Positions 9,243-61,292 of a DNA stretch of 64,000 nucleotides are shown here, in pieces; position 1 is the first letter of the stretch; each line of letters begins with the position of its first letter. The notes under the pieces were generated by a model. That model was not told where the DNA came from, did no database searches, and saw only the letters and a list, made by a program, of their open reading frames with translations. The stretch spans positions 1-64,000 of IMG/VR virus record IMGVR_UViG_3300009149_000022. One strand, given 5' to 3'. The DNA is from a virus. A program made the position numbers and the translations under genes.

Positions 9243-9491
9243 ATGGACATAAGAATAAACAACATTCTTGACTTGCAATTAGTAAATGATGATGTGTCTA
9301 CGTTTGTCAATGTTTTTGGTGTCCTAAAGACAGCAATAGAAAAACAAGGTGAAAAGGTAGGGTTTAAGAAGAATGGAACAATTACTATTGAGTTATCAGA
9401 AGATCAATTAGAATTTGTTATGTCAGTATGTGAAAATATTGGTATAGTATCAGATGTTGATTCTAGTGACACAGAAGTAGATAAATTATGA
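9243..9491 (+). CDS. Small acidic protein at head of the DNA polymerase operon
   Basis: 82 aa, first gene of the replication operon, overlapping the polymerase gene by 4 nt (ATGA-type), so probably coupled to it. The sequence has a helix-rich middle (FVNVFGVLKTAIEKQGEKVGF) and an acidic C-terminus (DVDSSDTEVDKL). No family recognised. A regulatory or polymerase-associated role is only a guess from position. Confidence 0.65.
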   Translation: MDIRINNILDLQLVNDDVSTFVNVFGVLKTAIEKQGEKVGFKKNGTITIELSEDQLEFVMSVCENIGIVSDVDSSDTEVDKL

Positions 9492-10996
9492 TAATAGATA
9501 TTGAACAAAATAAGTATTCTAATACAGTAAAGATTTCTTACATAGATGCAGAAAGGAATAGACAAATCATAGATATTCCAAAAAGTGATTTTTGGAAATG
9601 GCAATATAATGAAGGAAATTATGTTGACAACACCTTTAAATCTTGGGATAATAGAAATGTTATTAGGGTATCATATAAAGATGATAGTCACATAGACAAG
9701 AAAAGTATTTGGGAATGGATTAATGTACACCCACAATATAAAGATATCATATATCAATTTAATTTACCCAAGATACTTTTTTGTGATATTGAAACCGATA
9801 TACACGATGGGTTTCCCGATCCAAATGTGGCAAAAGAAAAAATAACCGCAATTACAGTTTGTTGGAAAGATGATAACAACAAAATTCAAGTTCTTGTACT
9901 AGGAGAAAAAGAAGATTTCGATTATAAAAAACAGAAAGAAATGAACAATTTTATTGTTGATTATTTTTCTAAAGTAACAGATATGGATATCATAATGAAA
10001 TATTTACATATCCCGGACGAAAAAAAATTATTAGAATCGTTTGTGAAAATTTGCTCAAAATTTCATGTCTTAACAGGATGGAATTTCATAAATACTTTTC
10101 GAGCGAATTGGGCCAATGATAGTGGTTTTGACTGGCCATTCTTATCAAATAGAATGGACTTATTAAAGGTTGACTATAAACAAATATCACCAACAAATAA
10201 CGTATCTAGGAAAAAAGATATAGGTAAAGTACCTAGTCATTTTGCAATTGTTGATTATATGTATTATTTTGATGCATTTGATAGAAGTATTAAAGTAAAA
10301 GAATCTAAAGGTTTAGATTTTGTTTCTGGACAAGTGTTGGGTGTTAAGAAATTGAAATATGGTAACTATCCTGTTATGAATGGGGATGTACTAAAAGAAA
10401 TGTATCAAAATGATTATGATACATATTGTATATACAACGCTATTGATACTATTTTAGTGCTCTTAATACACGAAAAAAGACAACCATTTACTGCCATTTT
10501 AGCACAAGGAAATGCATCAGGTAATCATATAGACAAAGCAGATTCTGCTGTTAACGTTACTGAAGGTTTTATGTCAAAAGCATATATCCAAGATAATAAA
10601 GTATTGCCCCTTATAGATATATCAAAAAGAGAAAAAGAATCTTATGAAGGTGCATATGTAAAATCTCCAATAGCTGGGTTACACACCCTAACGTGTTGTT
10701 ATGATTTTAGTTCACTTTATCCTTCTATATCTAGATTCTTAGAATTGGGGTTTGAAAATTTTGATAAAAAGATTATAGGAGATTTAAAAAAATATTCAAA
10801 CTACAAAGAACAATCTGTAAAATTAGAAAGAACTAATAATGATGAAATAATAAGTGTTACTGGTTGTGTCTTTAAAAAGGGTCAATCTACTTTGAAAACA
10901 GTATATGATGATTTGTATGCTGACAGAAAGAAAAATCAATACCGATCTAAATTGTGTGCAAAAATATCACACGAAATAAAACAAAAACGTAAATAA
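9488..10996 (+). CDS. 43: Family B DNA polymerase, piece 1 (exonuclease, palm motif A)
   Basis: 502 aa. Contains the 3'-5' exonuclease motifs in order: FCDIETD (~99, Exo I), SGFDWPFLSNR (~214, Exo II) and YDTYCIYNAIDTI (~310, Exo III Y-x3-D). These are followed by palm motif A YDFSSLYPS (~403). The frame stops at KQKRK in the early fingers, just after the ADRKK segment. Motif B and motif C are missing here and are found in the ORFs at 11819 and 12639. Role: proofreading and part of the active site of the replicative T4 gp43-type polymerase. The break position resembles the split gene 43 (43A/43B) known from some Aeromonas T4-like phages. It must assemble with the other pieces to be active. 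Confidence 0.9.
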   Translation: MIIDIEQNKYSNTVKISYIDAERNRQIIDIPKSDFWKWQYNEGNYVDNTFKSWDNRNVIRVSYKDDSHIDKKSIWEWINVHPQYKDIIYQFNLPKILFCDIETDIHDGFPDPNVAKEKITAITVCWKDDNNKIQVLVLGEKEDFDYKKQKEMNNFIVDYFSKVTDMDIIMKYLHIPDEKKLLESFVKICSKFHVLTGWNFINTFRANWANDSGFDWPFLSNRMDLLKVDYKQISPTNNVSRKKDIGKVPSHFAIVDYMYYFDAFDRSIKVKESKGLDFVSGQVLGVKKLKYGNYPVMNGDVLKEMYQNDYDTYCIYNAIDTILVLLIHEKRQPFTAILAQGNASGNHIDKADSAVNVTEGFMSKAYIQDNKVLPLIDISKREKESYEGAYVKSPIAGLHTLTCCYDFSSLYPSISRFLELGFENFDKKIIGDLKKYSNYKEQSVKLERTNNDEIISVTGCVFKKGQSTLKTVYDDLYADRKKNQYRSKLCAKISHEIKQKRK

Positions 10997-11028
10997 ATAC
11001 ATTTAATAATAAACAAAACAGTAATTTA

Positions 11029-11817
11029 ATGAAAAAAGTAGTATTAAAAACAGTAGACCTAGTAAAGTTTAACAACTTTATTGATTCATTGATTCCACTT
11101 AATGAAACCGGAACTATTTATTTTAAAATAGATTCTAAATATATTAGTACAGATTCACATAATGATAGTGGTACTATCATTAAGAGTCTGAAATCTGAAA
11201 TTAGTCAAATATGTGGAGAATCAAACTTAGATAGTATTGATAAACCAATTAAACTTTGTTTCTATGATGGTAAAAAAGTAAAGAAAGCATTTTCCTTTTT
11301 GAGTGGTAATGAAATTACTTGTGAAATATCGTTTTCAGAACTAGAATCAACCGGTGAATATTTTGCAGAAACTGTTAAGATTTCTAGTCCTAAAATATCC
11401 ATCACATTAGATGCAGCAGACCCAGAATTATTCGAATTTGCAAATGTACCAGAAGATAAAATAGAAGAGGTTAAAAATGTTTCAAATGCTGATTGTAATT
11501 TTAGAATGAGTGCAAATGAAATTTTACAAGTTCAAAAATTCTTAGATTTTGATAAAAATGAAGAAGTTGAATTTAGAGTAAATGGACAAGTTACCGTTTG
11601 TTCAGAAGATGCTTATGATATTTCAATTTCAGATGATTTCGAAGGATTGCCTAATGGTGGTATGAATATCTATAAAATAGGTAAAGAACTATTTAAATTA
11701 GTAGATTCTAATTCATATGTTGTATATCCAGTATTAGATGAATGTAAAATAATTTTTAAAGCAGAAGATAATTCTACACAAGTAGTTATCACATTACATG
11801 AAGACATAGATTTATAA
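11029..11817 (+). CDS. 45: DNA polymerase sliding clamp-like protein (gp45-like)
   Basis: 262 aa. Two to three alternating beta-alpha-beta modules typical of processivity clamps are visible: KVVLKTVDLVKFNNFIDSLI at the start, FRMSANEILQVQKFLDFD (~165) as the second-domain helix, and CKIIFKAEDNSTQVVITLHE as the closing strands. The length is near that of T4 gp45 (228 aa). Position is striking: it sits between polymerase pieces 1 and 2, with 32 nt before it and 1 nt after it. The clamp tethers the polymerase and in T4 also activates late transcription. Sequence identity to T4 gp45 is low by eye, so the name rests on fold pattern and context. Confidence 0.6.
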   Translation: MKKVVLKTVDLVKFNNFIDSLIPLNETGTIYFKIDSKYISTDSHNDSGTIIKSLKSEISQICGESNLDSIDKPIKLCFYDGKKVKKAFSFLSGNEITCEISFSELESTGEYFAETVKISSPKISITLDAADPELFEFANVPEDKIEEVKNVSNADCNFRMSANEILQVQKFLDFDKNEEVEFRVNGQVTVCSEDAYDISISDDFEGLPNGGMNIYKIGKELFKLVDSNSYVVYPVLDECKIIFKAEDNSTQVVITLHEDIDL

Positions 11818-11818
11818 T

Positions 11819-12562
11819 ATGTCCATAAGCATTAAAAATATGAGCACAGAAGAACTAGAGAATTTCGATTGGGATTCTCTAGATGATTCTCAATTAGATA
11901 AAGTTCTTGTTCAGTTAGATGATGAAGCCAATATTAAGAAAACACTAGAGCAAAGTAACAAATTAGTTCTTAATTCAATATATGGCGCACTTGCGTCTAA
12001 ATACTTTTATTGGTATGATAAATCATTAGCTGAAACTATTACTATACAAGGTCAAGATGCTATTCGATATGCTGAAAAGGCATTAGATTCTTATTTTCAT
12101 AATGTTTTTCACAAAGATAAATTAGTTTTGACTAAACTAAAAGAATTGTGTCCAGATGTTAATATTGAACCACAACCGTGTGTGAAACCCACTGTGGTAT
12201 ATATTGATACGGATAGTGTCGATAAAGATACTATTGTTAGTACTAATAAAGGCAATATTAGAATAGAAGATTTATATAACGAATCTAACAATAGTGCTGG
12301 TAATACACAAAACGGTCACGAATCAGTAACAACCAATAAAACCGTATTAAATTGGTCAAAAGAAAAAGGACTATATCAAGCACCAGTGAAAAGAGTTATT
12401 AGACACAAAGTAACTAAAGCAAAGTGGAAACTTAAAACTAAATCAGGAAAGGAAGTAATCGTAACTAATGACCACTCTATGATTGTTTTTAGGAATGGTA
12501 TTAAAGTTCAAGTTAAACCATCAGAAATTAAAAAAACTGATAAAATATTATCAGTTTTGTAG
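11819..12562 (+). CDS. 43: Family B DNA polymerase, piece 2 (motif B, motif C start) fused to N-terminal split intein
   Basis: 247 aa. Residues 1-48 match the helical fingers of T4-type polymerases. Motif B follows as KLVLNSIYGALASKYFYWYD (48-67). Motif C then begins as VYIDTD (127-132). At S133 an intein begins: SVDKDTIVSTNKGNIRIEDL (block A), and TNDHSMIVFRNG (block B, T-x-x-H) near 212. The ORF ends after KILSVL with TAG. The start is 1 nt after the clamp stop, suggesting coupled translation. Mature joining to the next ORF would rebuild YIDTDSAYVTF exactly. Trans-splicing is inferred. Confidence 0.9.
   Translation: MSISIKNMSTEELENFDWDSLDDSQLDKVLVQLDDEANIKKTLEQSNKLVLNSIYGALASKYFYWYDKSLAETITIQGQDAIRYAEKALDSYFHNVFHKDKLVLTKLKELCPDVNIEPQPCVKPTVVYIDTDSVDKDTIVSTNKGNIRIEDLYNESNNSAGNTQNGHESVTTNKTVLNWSKEKGLYQAPVKRVIRHKVTKAKWKLKTKSGKEVIVTNDHSMIVFRNGIKVQVKPSEIKKTDKILSVL
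12215..12559 (+). mobile_element. Split intein, N-terminal half (IntN, 115 aa)
   Basis: Begins with Ser1 directly after YIDTD, the pol-c insertion site used by archaeal and viral family-B polymerase inteins. Block A and block B motifs are present; no LAGLIDADG endonuclease is encoded. It ends at a stop codon, so splicing must be in trans. Confidence 0.85.
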
Positions 12563-12638
12563 TTCATTATGGAAAGAATTAATATGGCATAATGGACAAA
12601 GAAAACAAATTCAATAGAACAAGTAGAAAAAATAGTAA

Positions 12639-12767
12639 ATGAAATACGAAATAGAAGAAATAGAATCAATTGAGTGTATAGGAGATTTCGAAGATGAATA
12701 TGTCTATGATATTGAAGTAGATGACGATACTCACACTTTCATTGCTAATGGTATATTAGTTCATAAT
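12639..12767 (+). mobile_element. Split intein, C-terminal half (IntC, 43 aa)
   Basis: 43 codons with block F and the terminal VHN followed by Ser. The half sizes (115 and 43) are close to natural split inteins of the DnaE type. The 76 nt between the halves encode nothing recognisable and may be the scar of a lost endonuclease. Confidence 0.85.
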
Positions 12768-13592
12768 AGTGCTTATGTTACTTTCGAAGAGGTTGCGGAA
12801 AAAATTAATTGGACGGGTTCTCCTACTGATCTTGTATTAACTATTAATGAAATTAGATTATCTGGTTATCTAAAAAAGGTATTTGATAAATACGCCGAAT
12901 CTTACAACACAGATAATTATTTAGATTTCGAATTAGAAACTATTAGTAAATCTGGTATATGGGTTAAGAAAAAGAAATACACACAAGATATTGTGTGGGC
13001 TGATGGTAAATTCTATGATAGTGGAACATATACAAAAACAACCGGTCTTGAAATTATTAGACTAACAACACCACCTTTTTGTAGACCTGAATTATCTAAA
13101 TTGGTTCAATGGATATTTGATAAAGGTAAAAACTTTACACAAAGAGATATAACCATTGAATTACTAAAACTAAAGAAACGATTTGCCATAGCAGGTATAG
13201 AAGACATTTCGATAACAACAGCAATTGGTGACTATGAAAAATATGTTATAGATGACAAAGACTCTTTAAATCTCAATGATGGTTGTGGTACACATATTAG
13301 AGGTGCTGCGATTTATAATATGTACATTAATAACAATTCATCATATGAAAATCAATACGAAAGGTTAAAAACGGGTGACAAGGTAAAATGGTATTATGCA
13401 AAATCACATAAATCAGATTATAACGTTTTTAGTTTTAAACGTGGTTCATTCCCTAAAGAATTTGCACCAGAAGTGGATATTGATTTGATGTTTGAAAAAA
13501 CTATCATAAATCCATTAAACAACATACTACAAGCAATACCAGGTATTAATAAACTATCTGGATCTTTAAAAATTAAAAATCGTTTATTTTAA
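12639..13592 (+). CDS. 43: C-terminal split intein fused to family B DNA polymerase, piece 3 (palm/thumb)
   Basis: 317 aa. Residues 1-43 are the intein C-half: YVYDIEVDDDTHTFIANG (block F) and ILVHN (block G, ends His-Asn). Ser44 is the +1 extein residue, starting SAYVTF of motif C. The rest is palm and thumb: SGIWVKKKKYT (~103) corresponds to the K-K-x-Y motif and TTGLEIIRLTTPPF to the conserved segment after it. The C-terminus SGSLKIKNRLF is the expected clamp-binding tail position. It starts 76 nt after piece 2 in another frame, with a stop codon just before its ATG, so it is a separate ORF. Confidence 0.9.
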   Translation: MKYEIEEIESIECIGDFEDEYVYDIEVDDDTHTFIANGILVHNSAYVTFEEVAEKINWTGSPTDLVLTINEIRLSGYLKKVFDKYAESYNTDNYLDFELETISKSGIWVKKKKYTQDIVWADGKFYDSGTYTKTTGLEIIRLTTPPFCRPELSKLVQWIFDKGKNFTQRDITIELLKLKKRFAIAGIEDISITTAIGDYEKYVIDDKDSLNLNDGCGTHIRGAAIYNMYINNNSSYENQYERLKTGDKVKWYYAKSHKSDYNVFSFKRGSFPKEFAPEVDIDLMFEKTIINPLNNILQAIPGINKLSGSLKIKNRLF

Positions 13593-16586: not shown

Positions 16587-17534
16587 ATGAAGATAACCGA
16601 AAATGATAATATACAATGGGAAAGAATGGGAATTTACATATTACTAAATGAAAACGGAAAGTGTTATATAGGTAGTACTAACAATATAAAAAATAGATAT
16701 TTTAGACATAAACACCTGTTGGTGAATGGTAAACACGGCAAGTATATACAAAGAGCATATAATAAAAAAACAGCTAAGTTTAATTTTGAAATATTGGAAT
16801 ATGTAGACGATGTTAAAGATTTAAGAAAAAGAGAGGCACACTATATAAAAGAATACCAATCTATGTACTATCAAAATGGATATAATATTTTTGATGTGGA
16901 TGATAATGGATATTTTTGCCATTCAGATGAAACTAAAAAGAAAATATCAGAAGCAAATAGAGGTAAAATACCATATATAGATATTTTTGGGGCACATGGT
17001 GTGACAACTAAAGATGATACAAGATGGGAAAGTGGCGAAATATATCACAATACTACAAATAAAGTTTCTTGTATAGATAGTAATGGAAATACTAAAGTGG
17101 TAACTATGGAAGAATTTGAATCATCAAAAGATTTGTTTGGTGTCAATAAAGGTAAAAGTACATACAAGGACAAGTATGGAAATACTACAATGACTACCAT
17201 AGATGACCCTAGAGTATTAAGTGGTGAGTTGGTTGGTATTACTAAAGGAATACCTTCATTGCATGCCAAGGTAATTACTGTTGATGGTATAACATATCGT
17301 TCGTTAGAAGATGCATATACAACACTAGGAATATCAAAACCAACTTTCCGTAAACTATTAAAGGATGTAAATAATATTATATCTACCGTTCCATTTCAAG
17401 TGTCATTGTCAAAATATTTAGACGAAAAAAATAAAAGACAAGTTATTATAGATGGTATTGTATATAAGAATATGACAGTTGCTGTGAAAGAATTAGGAAT
17501 AAGTAGGTATAAATTAAAAAAACATGAAAGCTAG
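16587..17534 (+). CDS. GIY-YIG homing endonuclease
   Basis: 315 aa. N-terminal GIY-YIG domain: GIYILLNENGKCYIGSTNN (~14-32), the catalytic Arg in KNRYFRHKHL, and Glu in KREAHYIKEYQ (~88). The rest contains repeated short DNA-binding modules (KKKISEANRGK is NUMOD3-like; LGISKPTFRKLL and ELGISRYKLKK are NUMOD1/HTH-like). It cleaves a specific DNA site to spread by homing. It lies immediately 3' of the helicase gene and is followed by a diverged copy of the helicase 3' end, consistent with insertion into or beside that gene. Confidence 0.85.
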   Translation: MKITENDNIQWERMGIYILLNENGKCYIGSTNNIKNRYFRHKHLLVNGKHGKYIQRAYNKKTAKFNFEILEYVDDVKDLRKREAHYIKEYQSMYYQNGYNIFDVDDNGYFCHSDETKKKISEANRGKIPYIDIFGAHGVTTKDDTRWESGEIYHNTTNKVSCIDSNGNTKVVTMEEFESSKDLFGVNKGKSTYKDKYGNTTMTTIDDPRVLSGELVGITKGIPSLHAKVITVDGITYRSLEDAYTTLGISKPTFRKLLKDVNNIISTVPFQVSLSKYLDEKNKRQVIIDGIVYKNMTVAVKELGISRYKLKKHES

Positions 17535-44860: not shown

Positions 44861-44892
44861 AAAAAAGGGAACTAATTTTAGTTCCCTTTTTT
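44861..44892. terminator. Bidirectional terminator between phoH and the minus-strand endonuclease
   Basis: Stem AGGGAACTAA / TTAGTTCCCT with A and T runs on both sides; overlaps the stop codon of the minus-strand gene. Confidence 0.9.
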
Positions 44893-46671
44893 GTTATTCA
44901 ACTCATATATTTCGTTACCACAATCATAGATGCGATAATACCCCCTACTGTGCATAATTTGAACTTCTGTCATTGTATTTGGAAATCCTTGTTCTACTAG
45001 TTTTTGTTTTCTGAATTTGAACCTATTGAATTTAGAATTTCGATATGCCCAATAGTAACCAACAACAGTTTCACCCACAAAATTAAATCCATTTTTTACA
45101 TAAACATTACCATTTGAAATATCCCCATTAGCATAGCTCATTAATTTTTCAAATTCATAGGTTTTTAAAAAATGTGATAATAATTTACTAAACCCACCCA
45201 TCACAACACAATTCAATTTACTACAAAATCTAAGTAATTCTATTTCATTTTTTTTGTTTCTACTTTTACCAAAAGTAACTAAAGTCACTAAACAATTATT
45301 GTGATATAACCCCAATCTAATAGATGAATTACAATATCCCTGAAGGTGATTTTCTATTAGAAAATCTTTACTTTCTTTGTGTGACACTATTCTTATTTCA
45401 CAACACCTTGCACCTATCTTTTTCTTAGTCACCCCTAATTTATTTGATATTAGACTTTTGACTATATCTTGACGTTCTCGCCAATCATCTTCCCATATAT
45501 TTATAAGCAATATGTTATTTTCTTTACAAAGTTTTTTCTTATCTTTATGGTATGTTTTCGATGGTTTATTGAATTCCCCATGCCAATATAGTCCATTAAA
45601 TTCTATACCAATTCGCAAATCTGGTAGATAAATATCTATAGTTTTTCTACTGTTTGGAATTGGTGTGTTTTCTAGAATATTTCCATCATATACTTTTTTT
45701 ACATATTCCGTTAACTCTTTTTCTAGATTCGAAACCCCCGATTTTTCAACAATTTCAAAATATTCAGAATTACAATTTGGACATATACAAACATCACTAT
45801 TAACTAAGTTGTTTGTTGTTGTCCTATACGATGACCAATCACCTAAACAATTTCCACAAGAAAAAGAAACCTTTTCGGACGAATATTTAGTAATTTTAAT
45901 CTTCCATTTGCATAGTTTTTCATTCCAGTTATCTAAAACTATTTTGCGTTTAATTTTTAAATAATTTTTTGGGTTTGGGTATACACTAGTACCATACTTT
46001 TCTGTATTTGTAGATATTCGTTTATTATTTATGTCTTTTTTTTCCTTTTGTGTTTTTTTAGACCACGATTTTTTTATTTTTTCTTTTATTTCTGGTAGTT
46101 GCGTTTTTGATTTTACTCCATACTTTTCTATGTTTGTTTGTGTGTTGCGCATACATACGTCTTTCCATTCTTTAGAGTTGTAGTATATCTTTTTCAATTG
46201 TCTTGCTTCAACAGTATTGGCGGGATTCTCAATCCCATATCTTTCTAATGAAGTATTTTTTCGTTTATCTGATATTTTCTTTAATTCTTCTTCTGATTTT
46301 GATCCCCAAGTGTTTTTAATTTTTTCAACATAGGATGTGTTCTTGTATCTGCTCTTATTATCACAAGATCGTGAACAAAAAGAGTTTACTTTAGAAATTG
46401 TTATTTTACCAGACTTTTTAATTTTATAAGATGCGCTTATTTTCTTCCCACATTCTAAACACTTTGGTTGTTCTAAAATGTCATGTTGCCAATAATAAAA
46501 AATAGTTTTAAAGTTTAGCTCACTTTCTCTTATATCTAATTCGTGTTTACTAGTCCAAATCCATTCTAAAAATGGTTCTAAAAACCCCTTTTTTTCAAAT
46601 GTCTTGTAATCCTTCTTGTTTAATGACGAATCTATTAGTTGGAATTTTTTCTTAAAATCTATATACTTCAT
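44878..46671 (-). CDS. Vsr-like (EDxHD-type) homing endonuclease with zinc fingers
   Basis: 597 aa. N-terminal CLECGKK with FCSRSCDN forms a zinc finger; several repeats of the form K/RYG-(I/V/T) (RYGIENPANT, KYGVKSKTQL, KYGTSVYPN) look like modular DNA-binding units; a second finger is CGNC with CPNC. The catalytic domain (~330-420) has LEKELTEYVKKVY, DIYLPDLRIGIEFNGLYWH and LINIWEDDW, the pattern of Vsr-related homing nucleases such as I-Bth0305I. A final ~150-residue domain (GYCNSSIRLGLYHNN) may be acetyltransferase-like or DNA binding. It lies between phoH and the tail tube gene, antisense to phoH. Confidence 0.75.
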   Translation of the reverse strand: MKYIDFKKKFQLIDSSLNKKDYKTFEKKGFLEPFLEWIWTSKHELDIRESELNFKTIFYYWQHDILEQPKCLECGKKISASYKIKKSGKITISKVNSFCSRSCDNKSRYKNTSYVEKIKNTWGSKSEEELKKISDKRKNTSLERYGIENPANTVEARQLKKIYYNSKEWKDVCMRNTQTNIEKYGVKSKTQLPEIKEKIKKSWSKKTQKEKKDINNKRISTNTEKYGTSVYPNPKNYLKIKRKIVLDNWNEKLCKWKIKITKYSSEKVSFSCGNCLGDWSSYRTTTNNLVNSDVCICPNCNSEYFEIVEKSGVSNLEKELTEYVKKVYDGNILENTPIPNSRKTIDIYLPDLRIGIEFNGLYWHGEFNKPSKTYHKDKKKLCKENNILLINIWEDDWRERQDIVKSLISNKLGVTKKKIGARCCEIRIVSHKESKDFLIENHLQGYCNSSIRLGLYHNNCLVTLVTFGKSRNKKNEIELLRFCSKLNCVVMGGFSKLLSHFLKTYEFEKLMSYANGDISNGNVYVKNGFNFVGETVVGYYWAYRNSKFNRFKFRKQKLVEQGFPNTMTEVQIMHSRGYYRIYDCGNEIYELNNKKGN

Positions 46672-56475: not shown

Positions 56476-58350
56476 ATGAAAGGATTAAACGAATTCAAAA
56501 AGGTTGAATTAACAACCGATCAACAGGAACTAAATGAAAAACTTATTACCTTTGGTGGTAAAGCATATCCTAAATTTGGAAATGTTGTTTTATTAGCGGG
56601 CGGTGCCGGCTGTCATATAAAAGGAACAGAAGTTTTAATGTATGATGGTTCACACAAAAAAGTAGAAGATATTGTAGTAGGTGATTTACTTATGGGAACA
56701 GATAGTACAAAAAGAACTGTTAACGAATTACATTATGGTATTGATAAAATGGTTTCTGTAGAATCTAAAGTTGGAAATTATATTTCTAACTTTAGTCACA
56801 TACACACTTTTGTAGCTAGTTTTGATAAATGTGGTTATAAAAAAGACCAAGTTTATGATATGACATTAGAAGAATATACTAAACTAAATGATTCGACCAA
56901 AAAGTCATTAAAAATTTTTAGAAATGAAGAAATAGAATTCGAAAAAGATTCATATTCTTTGAACATTGACCCTTGGATAGTAGGATTTTGGTTAGGTGAT
57001 GGTACTAGAAAAACCCCTAGTTTTACAATAGAAAATAATTCTCAAATTATAAATTATATAAAGGATAATTATGAAGGTAAAGGGTATATATTTAACACAG
57101 AACATAAACAAGTTAAACCCAACTGCAAAACATATTCTTTAATAACCGAATCTAAAAACAATCCTTTTAGAGATTATGTAATAGAAAAGTGTGAAATTAA
57201 TTCAGAAAAAAGAATTCCAAAAGAACTTTTATTATCATCAATAGTTAATAGAAAAAAAGTTTTAGCGGGATTGATAGATTCGGATGGTTATTATGGTGGT
57301 GGTGTATATGAAATTTGTACTAAATGGGAATCATTAAAAAATGATATAGAATTTTTATGTGGGTCATTGGGTTATAAAACAAATACAACAATAAAGAAAG
57401 TTAATTATAATGGAGAAATTAAAGAATATCAAAGAATAACTATTTCTGGAAATTTTAAAAATTTACCAATAGTTTTAGATTATAAAAAATCACATCAAAA
57501 TAAAAACAAAAATCCAAATAGAGGATCATTCAAAATATGTATTTTAGATGAAATGGAATATTATGGTTTTTCAATTAAAGAAAACGATAAACATTTTATT
57601 TTGAAAAACTGGATTGTTCAACATAATTCAGGGAAAGGTTTTATTAAAGATAACTTACTAGGTATCGAAGGTCAAGTTTACGATGTTGATGAAGTTAAGC
57701 AACTTGCACTTAAATCTGATAAGATTAAGAAAATGGCACAAGAAGCAACAGGTAAAGATATATCTACTTTTGATTTAAAGAATCCAGATGATGTTGGTAC
57801 GCTTCATACTATTCTTGATGAAACACTTAATGTTATTGATAAAAGAAAATTATCAAGATATGCTGGTATTTTAATGGCACCGGCAGATAGAAAACCAAAT
57901 CTTATTTTTGATGTTACACTAAAGAACTTGAATAAGTTAAGAAGCATTTCAGCAGATATTAAAGAATTAGGATATGAAGGTGTTAATACTCACTTAGTTT
58001 GGGTTATTAATTCATATAATGTTGCGATGGCACAAAACAAAGAAAGAAGTAGACAAGTACCAGAAGAAATTTTAATGGACACACATAGAGGAGCAGCACA
58101 AACAGCTAAAGATATTCTTGATATGGGTAAAGACATTAAAAAATACTTAGATGGTGATATTTGGTATGCATTCAACAAAAGGGGTGTAGATTCTATAATT
58201 GCTAAATCTAACAAAGGGGGTTCTTACATTAAAGATGCTAATTACATTAAAGTAAAAGAAGCCGGAAAACCTATTAATAACAAAAAAGTTACCGATGAAG
58301 TAGTTAAAAAAATTGCTGGTTATGTACCACCAAGTAACTATTGGGGATAA
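56476..58350 (+). CDS. P-loop kinase (zeta-toxin-like) interrupted by an intein
   Basis: 624 aa precursor; 285 aa after splicing. The extein has a P-loop split exactly inside Walker A: LLAGGAG before and SGKGF after the intein, giving GGAGSGKGF. The C-terminal extein has VWVINSYNVAMAQNKERSRQVPEEI, a LID-like Arg-rich segment typical of zeta-toxin/polynucleotide-kinase-type phosphotransferases, and THRGAAQTAKDI. The substrate is unknown. The N-terminus (MKGLNEFKKVE) resembles the capsid-targeting leaders elsewhere but lacks Glu10. It lies in the nucleic-acid metabolism operon. Confidence 0.75.
   Translation: MKGLNEFKKVELTTDQQELNEKLITFGGKAYPKFGNVVLLAGGAGCHIKGTEVLMYDGSHKKVEDIVVGDLLMGTDSTKRTVNELHYGIDKMVSVESKVGNYISNFSHIHTFVASFDKCGYKKDQVYDMTLEEYTKLNDSTKKSLKIFRNEEIEFEKDSYSLNIDPWIVGFWLGDGTRKTPSFTIENNSQIINYIKDNYEGKGYIFNTEHKQVKPNCKTYSLITESKNNPFRDYVIEKCEINSEKRIPKELLLSSIVNRKKVLAGLIDSDGYYGGGVYEICTKWESLKNDIEFLCGSLGYKTNTTIKKVNYNGEIKEYQRITISGNFKNLPIVLDYKKSHQNKNKNPNRGSFKICILDEMEYYGFSIKENDKHFILKNWIVQHNSGKGFIKDNLLGIEGQVYDVDEVKQLALKSDKIKKMAQEATGKDISTFDLKNPDDVGTLHTILDETLNVIDKRKLSRYAGILMAPADRKPNLIFDVTLKNLNKLRSISADIKELGYEGVNTHLVWVINSYNVAMAQNKERSRQVPEEILMDTHRGAAQTAKDILDMGKDIKKYLDGDIWYAFNKRGVDSIIAKSNKGGSYIKDANYIKVKEAGKPINNKKVTDEVVKKIAGYVPPSNYWG
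56611..57627 (+). mobile_element. Full-length intein with LAGLIDADG endonuclease (339 aa)
   Basis: Begins with Cys1 (CHIKGTEVLMYDGS, block A) and ends VQHN (block G) followed by Ser+1. Block B is NFSHIHTF. The two LAGLIDADG motifs are PWIVGFWLGDG and VLAGLIDSDGYY, both with acidic residues present, so the endonuclease may be active. Inserted in the conserved P-loop, a classic intein site. Confidence 0.93.
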
Positions 58351-59227: not shown

Positions 59228-60877
59228 ATGATTAAAGCAGATAAATATTATATTCAAAATCTAAAGGAAATACTTTTTCAAAATAACATAGATGAAAACC
59301 CAAGACCATCATACAAAGATGGAACTAAAGCACATACTAAGTTTATTACACAAGTTTTTGAAAAGTATGATATATCAAAAGGTGAATTTCCAATAACAAC
59401 ATTAAGAAATACTGCAATTAAAACAGGTATTAAAGAAATGCTGGTTATCTACCAAGAACAATCAAATAAGTTGGTTGATTTTGAAACTGCTAAATGTGGT
59501 TGGTGGTCGGAATGGATGAACGAAGATGGTGATCTAGGTAGAGCATATTCACATAATATGGAATCACACCGACCTAATGAGATGCAAAAAACTATTGTTA
59601 AGGTTAAACCCAGAATAGTTGATGAAAAATATTCAGAGATGCTGAATATAATGGATATTAACGATACTTCTCTGGTTGCAAATCCGATAAAAATATTTGA
59701 AAATTATCAATTAATTCGTGAAGATAAGAAATCTAGGAAATATGTGTTGCAAAATATATCAACAGGGGAAATACAAGTAATAACGCATAAAACATATAAA
59801 AAGTTGTTAGATGGTGACCCTTCTTTTCTAATAAGAAAAAGTCCATTCTTGTATTGTAGGAATAATGAAGGTGTTGGTTATTTAGGAAATTATAAAACAA
59901 TTAATGGTTATAGTGATGCAACATTAAAATTACTCAGGGATAAATGGGTAAACATGTTAAGAAGATGTTATTCTGATAAATATGAATCACATAACGATGT
60001 TTTTGTACACCAAGACTGGCATAGTTTTGAAAACTTTCTGAGAGATGTTAGAATGCTACCACAATATCATTTAGCAAAAGAAAATAATTTCGATGGGTGG
60101 GATTTAGATAAAGATTACTATGGTAGTAATTGTTATAGTAAAGATACTTGTGTTTTTCTTTGCCATAAGGATAATGTTTTATATGCTAGTTGTTATCCAA
60201 TTAAGGTAACTAAACCTAATGGTAATATTGAACATACAATAAATATTAGAGGTTTTTGTGCTGAACATAATTTATCTAAAACTTGTTTATTGAAGGTTAT
60301 TAATGGTAAACAATCGCACCACAAAGGTTATAAATTTGAAAAGATTATAGATACTGAAAATCTGTATAGATATGAACTTTCTAATAACCAATTAACCTCA
60401 TTATTAGATGGTTTAGAAAATAATCCATTTGGACGTAGACACATTATGTCATTTTGGAATTGGTCTAATATTGATAAGAAGGAACTTGTTGAGTGTGCGT
60501 TTGAAAGTTTATGGACACCTCGAAAAGTTGATGGTGTGATGTATTTAGATATGACATTAACACAGAGAAGTCAAGATGCTATTATGGCAACATATATCAA
60601 TAAAACCCAATATGTTGCATTGCAAATGATGGTTTGTAAACATTTAGGTTTTGAGGTTGGTGTGTTTTCACACATGATTCAAAACTATCATATTTATGAT
60701 AGACATGTAAATGCTTGTAATGAATTACTTGCAAGAAAACCTTTGAATTTTCAACCTTCGATGAAATTAAATGTTCCAAACAAAACAAACTTCTATGAAA
60801 TAAAGATACAAGATTTTGAAATTATCACATCTAAAAACATCAAGAAAATAGAATCAGAATTAGAGATTGCTATTTAG
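59228..60877 (+). CDS. Thymidylate synthase with in-frame inserted HNH/NUMOD-like domain
   Basis: 549 aa against ~265-315 usual. Synthase N-part 1-~130: EFPITTLRNTAIKTGIKEML (53-72) and WWSEWMNEDGDLGRAY. Synthase C-part ~380-530: NNPFGRRHIM, the catalytic Cys at 423 (ECAFESLW), TQRSQDA (~446) and HIYDRHV (~488). Between them, ~135-375 carry a mobile DNA-binding/HNH-like module: EGVGYLGNYKT, LRDKWVNMLRRCYS, WDLDKDYYGSNCYSKDTCVF and a NUMOD-type helix-turn-helix (GFCAEHNLSKTCLLKVINGK). The frame is continuous with no intein splice signals. Makes dTMP from dUMP if the insertion is tolerated or removed. Confidence 0.82.
   Translation: MIKADKYYIQNLKEILFQNNIDENPRPSYKDGTKAHTKFITQVFEKYDISKGEFPITTLRNTAIKTGIKEMLVIYQEQSNKLVDFETAKCGWWSEWMNEDGDLGRAYSHNMESHRPNEMQKTIVKVKPRIVDEKYSEMLNIMDINDTSLVANPIKIFENYQLIREDKKSRKYVLQNISTGEIQVITHKTYKKLLDGDPSFLIRKSPFLYCRNNEGVGYLGNYKTINGYSDATLKLLRDKWVNMLRRCYSDKYESHNDVFVHQDWHSFENFLRDVRMLPQYHLAKENNFDGWDLDKDYYGSNCYSKDTCVFLCHKDNVLYASCYPIKVTKPNGNIEHTINIRGFCAEHNLSKTCLLKVINGKQSHHKGYKFEKIIDTENLYRYELSNNQLTSLLDGLENNPFGRRHIMSFWNWSNIDKKELVECAFESLWTPRKVDGVMYLDMTLTQRSQDAIMATYINKTQYVALQMMVCKHLGFEVGVFSHMIQNYHIYDRHVNACNELLARKPLNFQPSMKLNVPNKTNFYEIKIQDFEIITSKNIKKIESELEIAI
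59630..60352 (+). mobile_element. Inserted HNH/NUMOD-like domain within thymidylate synthase (approximate limits)
   Basis: About 240 codons interrupting the synthase between GDLGRAYSHN and the YELSNNQLTSLLDGL region. The domain pattern resembles free-standing phage HNH-type mobile proteins that end in a NUMOD/IENR helix-turn-helix. Limits are estimated from where synthase similarity stops and resumes. Confidence 0.6.
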
Positions 60878-60910: not shown

Positions 60911-61048
60911 ATGGTCGGTATTTATAGAATAAGAAATATAATTTCAAAAAAGTCATATTATGGTTCTTCTAAGGATATAGAAAAACGATTCAAAAGACAT
61001 AGGATTATTAGTAAAAATAAAAAATATGAAAATTACAAATACGAATGA
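60911..61048 (+). pseudogene. Truncated GIY-YIG endonuclease relic
   Basis: 45 codons: GIYRIRN (GIY), SYYGSSKDI (YYG) and KRFKRH with the catalytic-type Arg and His, then the frame runs out into a stop. Lacks the Glu and all DNA-binding modules, so it cannot be active. It is fused out of frame to the thymidylate-synthase relic at about 61040. Confidence 0.8.
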
Positions 61049-61292
61049 AATGATTGCTCAGCAAACTAATATGGTTGCTGGAGAATTAATCGGAAACTTA
61101 GGAGATACGCACTTGTACTCAAATCATATCGAGTATGTAGAAAAACAATTAACAAGAACTTCAGTTGAAACTTGTAAGCCTAAGTTAGTTCTAAATAAAG
61201 CTAAAGATATTTTTAGCTATAAGTTTGAAGACTTTAAAATAGAAGGTTACACTGCTCACCCAAATTGGAAAGGAGTATCAATTGGAATATAA
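61026..61292 (+). pseudogene. C-terminal relic of a second thymidylate synthase
   Basis: 88 codons. Similarity begins at MIAQQTNMVAGELIGNLGDTHLYSNH, equal to the E. coli ThyA segment ending GGDTHLYSNH. It continues through PKLVLNKAKDIFSYKFEDFKIEGYTAHPNWKG to the C-terminus. The catalytic Cys and the entire N-terminal two thirds are missing. It is of the E. coli/T4 Td type, different from the intact synthase upstream (HIYDRH type). The next gene overlaps it, which may preserve the tail sequence. Confidence 0.85.

Follow-up and report, generated by a model that had tools for sequence, protein, structure and literature searches.

The window analysed here, a stretch of 64,000 nucleotides from a virus record of 73,726 bases (IMGVR_UViG_3300009149_000022), contains at 59228-60877 a thymidylate synthase (ThyA) that holds, in frame, an insert of homing-endonuclease type. 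The gene is one uninterrupted frame of 549 codons (549 aa), and the Pfam profile of ThyA (PF00303, 4.1e-54) matches it in two pieces that flank the insert. Because phrog_2081 is matched (8.8e-32) between these two pieces, the split cannot be put down to chance. The limits of the insert were set by alignment with ThyAs that lack it (L006-L024, L030-L032 and E. coli ThyA) and by a table of boundaries, and they place it between the YGxxWR motif (YSHN.. in this protein) and the helix that starts with (D/N)Q. The features are as follows.

59228..59560, + strand: ThyA part 1, residues 1-111, through YSHN, the equivalent of YGxxW (first PF00303 piece; alignment with empty homologues)
59561..60385, + strand: whole insert, residues ~112-386, 275 aa, in frame at both ends, at site 2 (alignment with empty ThyAs; boundary table)
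59582..59632, + strand: N-terminal extension of the insert, residues 119-135, with strand IVKV and motif vVkVkPRI (insert alignment; DSSP strand 123-126)
59633..59872, + strand: beta-rich N-terminal domain of the insert, residues 136-215 (alignments, DSSP)
59903..60187, + strand: HNH-like nuclease core, residues ~226-320 (phrog_2081 8.8e-32, phrog_953 2.8e-18; core alignment)
60104..60151, + strand: signature LDKDYYGSNCYSKDTC, residues 293-308 (core alignment)
60239..60340, + strand: NUMOD DNA-binding domain of the I-HmuI type, residues 338-371 (PF22083, I-HmuI_NUMOD-like, 8.1e-5, below the curated Pfam cut-off; family profile against I-HmuI, 1u3e, 4.5e-5)
60359..60385, + strand: C-terminal extension with strand LYRY (residues 379-382) and the near-invariant Arg381 (boundary table; DSSP strand 379-382)
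60386..60877, + strand: ThyA part 2, residues 387-549, with RR403-404, catalytic Cys423, QRS 446-448, D450, N458 and HIY 488-490 (second PF00303 piece; invariant columns)

Both the fold and the catalytic residues (Cys, Arg, Ser, Asp, Asn and His-x-Tyr) make the host protein a ThyA. Cys423, R447-S448, D450, N458, H488 and Y490 are invariant across 41 aligned ThyAs with and without insert, as are R403/R404, E70 and Y107, this protein included, and we predict that the enzyme makes dTMP with the insert in place. An earlier note on this DNA had described an unbroken frame with Cys423 and QRS intact, exactly as we find them, and an insertion of ~240 codons at residues 130-380; the insertion is real, but comparison with empty homologues widens it to the limits given above. 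The note was also right to read nuclease and DNA-binding sequence in it, namely the HNH-like core and the NUMOD, and missed the beta-rich N-terminal domain.

The insert shows homology to known homing endonucleases through phrog_2081 (HNH endonuclease), whose match spans residues 226-379, through phrog_953, and through the NUMOD of I-HmuI when the family profile is used. A PDB sequence search with the insert of this ORF alone returned nothing significant, only the family profile reaching I-HmuI, and no Pfam profile matches the nuclease core itself. Foldseek matches include annotated homing endonucleases of the Bacillus phages Grass and Moonbeam. The beta-rich domain resembles the N-terminal part of free-standing relatives (y.V......V.F..TG+) and is absent from L005 and from inserts at the other insertion site (site 1, see below). 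Where the ThyA insert carries LDKDYYGSNCYSKDTC, free-standing relatives read LDKDI..GNKVYSPETC, and compared with them the ThyA-resident inserts have extra extensions at both ends, which bear the terminal strands. The N-terminal extension, with its hydrophobic strand (vVkV..), is common to inserts at both sites, and Arg occupies the position of Arg381 in 24/24 inserts, again at both sites. All of the family motifs are found in the insert described here. Judged by these matches, the insert is a homing-endonuclease module of the PHROG 2081/953 kind, made of an HNH-like core and an I-HmuI-type NUMOD, and it presumably cleaves DNA.

The surroundings are rich in fragments and mobile elements. The gene is closely followed by a truncated GIY-YIG endonuclease, of which an N-terminal piece is left (60911-61046; PF01541, 2.5e-7), and by a 3' piece, 88 aa long, of a second thyA of canonical type (61026-61292; PF00303, 1.2e-20), and the fragments at 60911-61292 are the remains of an earlier thyA. 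Similar neighbours are found in the relative L025 (4001-4204), where thyA is internally deleted and ~34 N-terminal and ~37 C-terminal codons are left in frame. Elsewhere in the window, a family B DNA polymerase (PolB) is spread over three ORFs at 9488-13592 with a break at YIDTDS; ORF 11029-11817 sits between its first two pieces, and intein halves (PF14890 in both) occupy the end of ORF 11819-12562 (N-terminal half) and the start of ORF 12639-13592 (C-terminal half), so that this break may be a split intein. An intein with Hint and LAGLIDADG-like domains interrupts the P-loop of a phrog_5268 protein at 56476-58350 (GGAG|CHIKG...VQHN|SGKGF). A homing-type GIY-YIG nuclease with NUMOD1/NUMOD3 (16587-17534) and a phrog_3339 homing endonuclease (44878-46671, - strand) are also present.

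The in-frame ThyA insert is not unique to IMGVR_UViG_3300009149_000022. Using the nuclease core as query, without any ThyA sequence, we found 22 viral loci in IMG/VR (a few of them near-copies), 21/22 of them within a ThyA frame and the remaining one free-standing, and two loci among 84,980 prokaryote genomes, both (2/2) inside ThyA. Relatives detected by tblastn come from Bacillus phage 015DV002, Enterococcus phages vB_EfaM_A2 and 163, Klebsiella phages KP13-7 and phiKp_21, and Tenacibaculum phages PTm1 and PTm5. At every ThyA-resident locus the nuclease is joined in frame to the ThyA sequence on either side, and the same architecture recurs on independent contigs, while most close ThyA relatives of the protein described here carry no insert. 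Two insertion sites are used, both of them surface loops of ThyA whose sequence length varies naturally: site 2 is the one occupied in ORF 59228-60877, and site 1 lies between IWDxW and GDLGPVYG, which we take to be the place of the extra ~50 residues of Lactobacillus casei ThyA. In the part of the literature covered by our search, we recognised no report of an in-frame nuclease in ThyA.

Some family members carry further interruptions. In L138 and L140 ThyA is broken a second time downstream, near the QRS motif; in these two and in L102 the ThyA frame stops directly after QR(S), and in L140 the 3' part of ThyA is a separate ORF a few hundred bases on. An intron at QRS is likely in all three, in L138 and L140 alongside the in-frame HNH insert upstream. 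L200 and L203 offer another case of nuclease and enzyme joined in frame, since their ORF from 1423 combines a phrog_2081-like HNH module with an NrdG-like radical SAM protein (PF13353, 8e-48).

Structure prediction, which the earlier note had proposed as a way to see whether the insert loops out of the synthase fold, gave such a picture. The AlphaFold2 model of the 549-aa chain, built with a 41-row alignment, reaches a pLDDT of 90.5 and a pTM of 0.88, residues 116-119 being the sole stretch under pLDDT 50, and it superposes on B. subtilis ThyA 1b02 with Z 35.7 and rmsd 1.8 over 274/279 residues (VIA-align, residues 1..549). The model of a site-1 member, L134 (pLDDT 90.4, pTM 0.76), aligns to E. 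coli and M. tuberculosis ThyA with Z ~40. The best 50 structure matches of the full models are all ThyA entries, so the absence of nuclease folds among them is uninformative. In both models DSSP assigns a short strand to each end of the insert (123-126 and 379-382 in ORF 59228-60877, 93-96 and 282-285 in L134). The ThyA fold is thus predicted to be intact, with the insert protruding from it as a surface loop, and the two terminal strands probably pair into a stalk.

Several observations speak for a mobile lineage, namely its patchy distribution, the occurrence of almost the same insert in ThyAs that have diverged, and its recent acquisition by 015DV002. In a ThyA tree computed without the insert columns, carriers and empty ThyAs are intermixed and the state of the insert changes 15 times, at least eight of these changes being forced by well-supported branches. 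In a tree of the cores, which is built on few columns and on groups gathered with different queries, 26 ThyA-resident cores fall on one side of a branch and 79 free-standing ones on the other (SH-aLRT 87). The inserts of L135 and L137 are 91% identical in nucleotides (dN/dS 0.11), whereas their ThyAs are only 69-70% identical. The clearest comparison sets Bacillus phage 015DV002 against 015DV004, each of which comes from Death Valley soil. Around thyA their DNA agrees at 98-100%, apart from the insert and a tract of ~150 nt downstream of it at 63-65% identity. In 60-nt bins, identity is 95-100% leftward from the junction near the gene, and past the insert it is 63%, 65% and 90% before returning to 98-100%; an empty control pair, 015DV004 and 000TH008, stays at 95-98% in the same bins. 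By this computation, 015DV002 shows what appears to be a recent gain of the insert with a co-conversion-like tract of the flanks at an empty allele, the mark of homing. A candidate tract in Enterococcus phage A2 was dropped, since similar variation is seen there in an empty control pair and the tract is therefore no evidence; in Klebsiella phage KP13-7 the tract next to the insert was compared without a control pair. ORF 59228-60877 has no close empty relative, the best being about 58% identical. The earlier note was right to see a mobile HNH/NUMOD-type domain.

The insert can also decay in place. In L005 the N-terminal domain and the NUMOD are gone but the frame is kept, and the td gene of Krischvirus (RB49-like) phages (Phi1, JSE and many isolates) retains a degenerate remnant of ~130 aa. 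A comparison of two Krischviruses puts dN/dS at 0.26 for the remnant, as against 0.06 and 0.02 for its ThyA flanks. Selection thus holds ThyA in frame with or without an intact nuclease, which speaks against a need to remove the insert.

How such an insert is tolerated could have answers other than simple retention. The Pfam library that finds intein domains elsewhere on the same stretch (at 56476-58350 and in PolB) gave no Hint, Hom_end_hint or Intein_splicing match in ORF 59228-60877, and among 24 inserts neither junction conserves the residues of an intein (Cys/Ser/Ala first, Asn/Gln last, Cys/Ser/Thr next); a recognisable intein was ruled out on these two grounds. The earlier note, which had seen neither intron nor recognisable intein, is upheld here, but its suggestion of an unrecognised protein-splicing class, in which the insert would remove itself by new chemistry, seems to us very improbable. 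The in-frame, endonuclease-bearing, homing-like lifestyle resembles that of inteins, and the conserved terminal strands and the Arg near the C-terminal end could be taken in its favour, but no conserved nucleophile or Asn marks the junctions, both sites are naturally variable loops from which the models require no removal, and shrunken remnants persist in ThyAs under strong purifying selection. A self-splicing intron with an ORF that by chance runs on into both exons is scarcely credible, less so even than hidden splicing. In Bastillevirinae, group I introns of DNA polymerases do encode related PHROG 2081 nucleases (PMC11878797), and introns are known to target thyA (T4 td; PJN02), but no group I or II ribozyme core was matched in Rfam, whether at the gathering threshold or with E allowed up to 5, a null at both thresholds on which the intron was ruled out; moreover, almost the entire insert is conserved as protein-coding sequence, and all distinct members keep the frame at both ends, something that an intron would not call for. 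We infer that the insert is not excised in vivo. A hidden nuclease of the ShiLan type (see below) was rejected as well, the longest other frame within the insert being 56 codons and the HNH-like core lying in the ThyA frame. Nor is separate synthesis of the nuclease from an internal start supported: across all inserts checked, no start before the core is common to the family, many having no ATG ahead of it and only five a GTG with a weak ribosome-binding-like word.

Two further readings concern the fate of the gene. The insert could be a domesticated domain, of homing-endonuclease origin and now an immobile, fixed part of ThyA that serves in DNA binding, regulation or stability. Among ORF 59228-60877, L004 and L005, the HNH-like core (60-67% identity) and the N-terminal extension (61-74%) match ThyA itself (50-62%) in conservation, so a role beyond homing is possible, and Krischvirus phages do retain their remnant. 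In the same three, the N-terminal domain and the NUMOD have diverged or been lost. We nevertheless consider domestication unlikely, given the marks of a mobile lineage described above and the fact that most close ThyA relatives do without the insert. That the gene is dying, or an assembly artefact, with a broken thyA in a decaying locus, could be suspected from the fragments of a second thyA and of a GIY-YIG nuclease downstream and from the internal deletion in L025. This is as improbable as hidden splicing, for the frame and all catalytic residues are intact, independent contigs share the architecture, and dN/dS against L004 and L005 is about 0.2 in ThyA and core alike (with dS near saturation).

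Our computations yield an open frame, an intact predicted ThyA fold with its residues, a scattered nuclease lineage restricted to ThyA, a recent gain and decay in frame. The explanation that we favour, and hold to be highly probable, is that of a non-splicing, in-frame homing element that is kept in the mature ThyA. A phage homing-endonuclease module of the free-standing or intron-encoded type would have become a resident of phage thyA, occupying in frame either of two length-variable surface loops, and would be translated together with the enzyme and remain in it. The strands of the end extensions probably pair as a stalk that brings the ends of the insert close, so that the ThyA fold would close beneath it and stay active with the nuclease looped out. 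The element would spread by homing, with the nuclease cutting or nicking an empty thyA and repair copying in the insert and some flanking DNA; once the nuclease is lost, the remnant would be trimmed in frame, as may have happened in L005 and Krischvirus td. Among the three readings offered by the earlier note, which is partly supported as a whole, a tolerated surface-loop insertion fits the structure prediction and the empty-site comparisons best, and a bifunctional protein, synthase and endonuclease, would be compatible with it.

To our knowledge, homing endonucleases are usually thought to survive within genes only through removal, as in introns and inteins, or through gene splitting. The family points to a third way, in which the insert is tolerated by looping out on a built-in stalk, and makes it testable how a selfish nuclease persists inside an important enzyme. 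It may also account for the td insert of RB49-like phages, and it provides a natural guide to points of whole-domain insertion in ThyA. We lean, with less assurance than for retention itself, towards regarding it as a distinct class of splicing-free homing element, with its own two-strand stalk, placed in frame in variable loops, never removed, and active as an endonuclease while joined to a working enzyme; it would be one lineage specialised on thyA, using two loops in unrelated phages.

Known systems share parts of this arrangement. The ShiLan element of actinophage DNA methylases, whose HNH endonuclease is out of frame with its own start (PMC11855218, PMC9957025), is likewise a stop-free insertion in a host frame with no signs of intein or intron, a patchy homing-like spread and a looped-out prediction. 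In the ThyA inserts, which reside in another host gene, the nuclease is in frame, is part of the enzyme and has no family-wide start, and their terminal strand extensions are not described for ShiLan. A lone LAGLIDADG insertion in the same methylase family, reported to be vertically inherited (PMC9957025, PMC11855218), is also an endonuclease domain with no detectable splicing domain, but it is confined to one methylase family, whereas the ThyA inserts are of HNH/NUMOD type, scattered and found at two sites. I-HmuI (PDB 1u3e) shares the NUMOD DNA-binding domain, but it is intron-encoded and the nuclease core of the ThyA inserts is unmatched by sequence. The T4 td intron with I-TevI (PMC2988022) has thyA as its target, and the Bastillevirinae group I introns with PHROG 2081 HNH nucleases (PMC11878797) share the phrog_2081 family and the I-HmuI NUMOD; the ThyA inserts differ from both in having no ribozyme and in their insertion points. 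Finally, mobE in nrdA of Aeromonas phage Aeh1 is a homing endonuclease in a gene of nucleotide metabolism without a splicing element, and it splits nrdA into separate genes while the enzyme is still active (PMC2988022), whereas the ThyA insert keeps the frame and yields one polypeptide.
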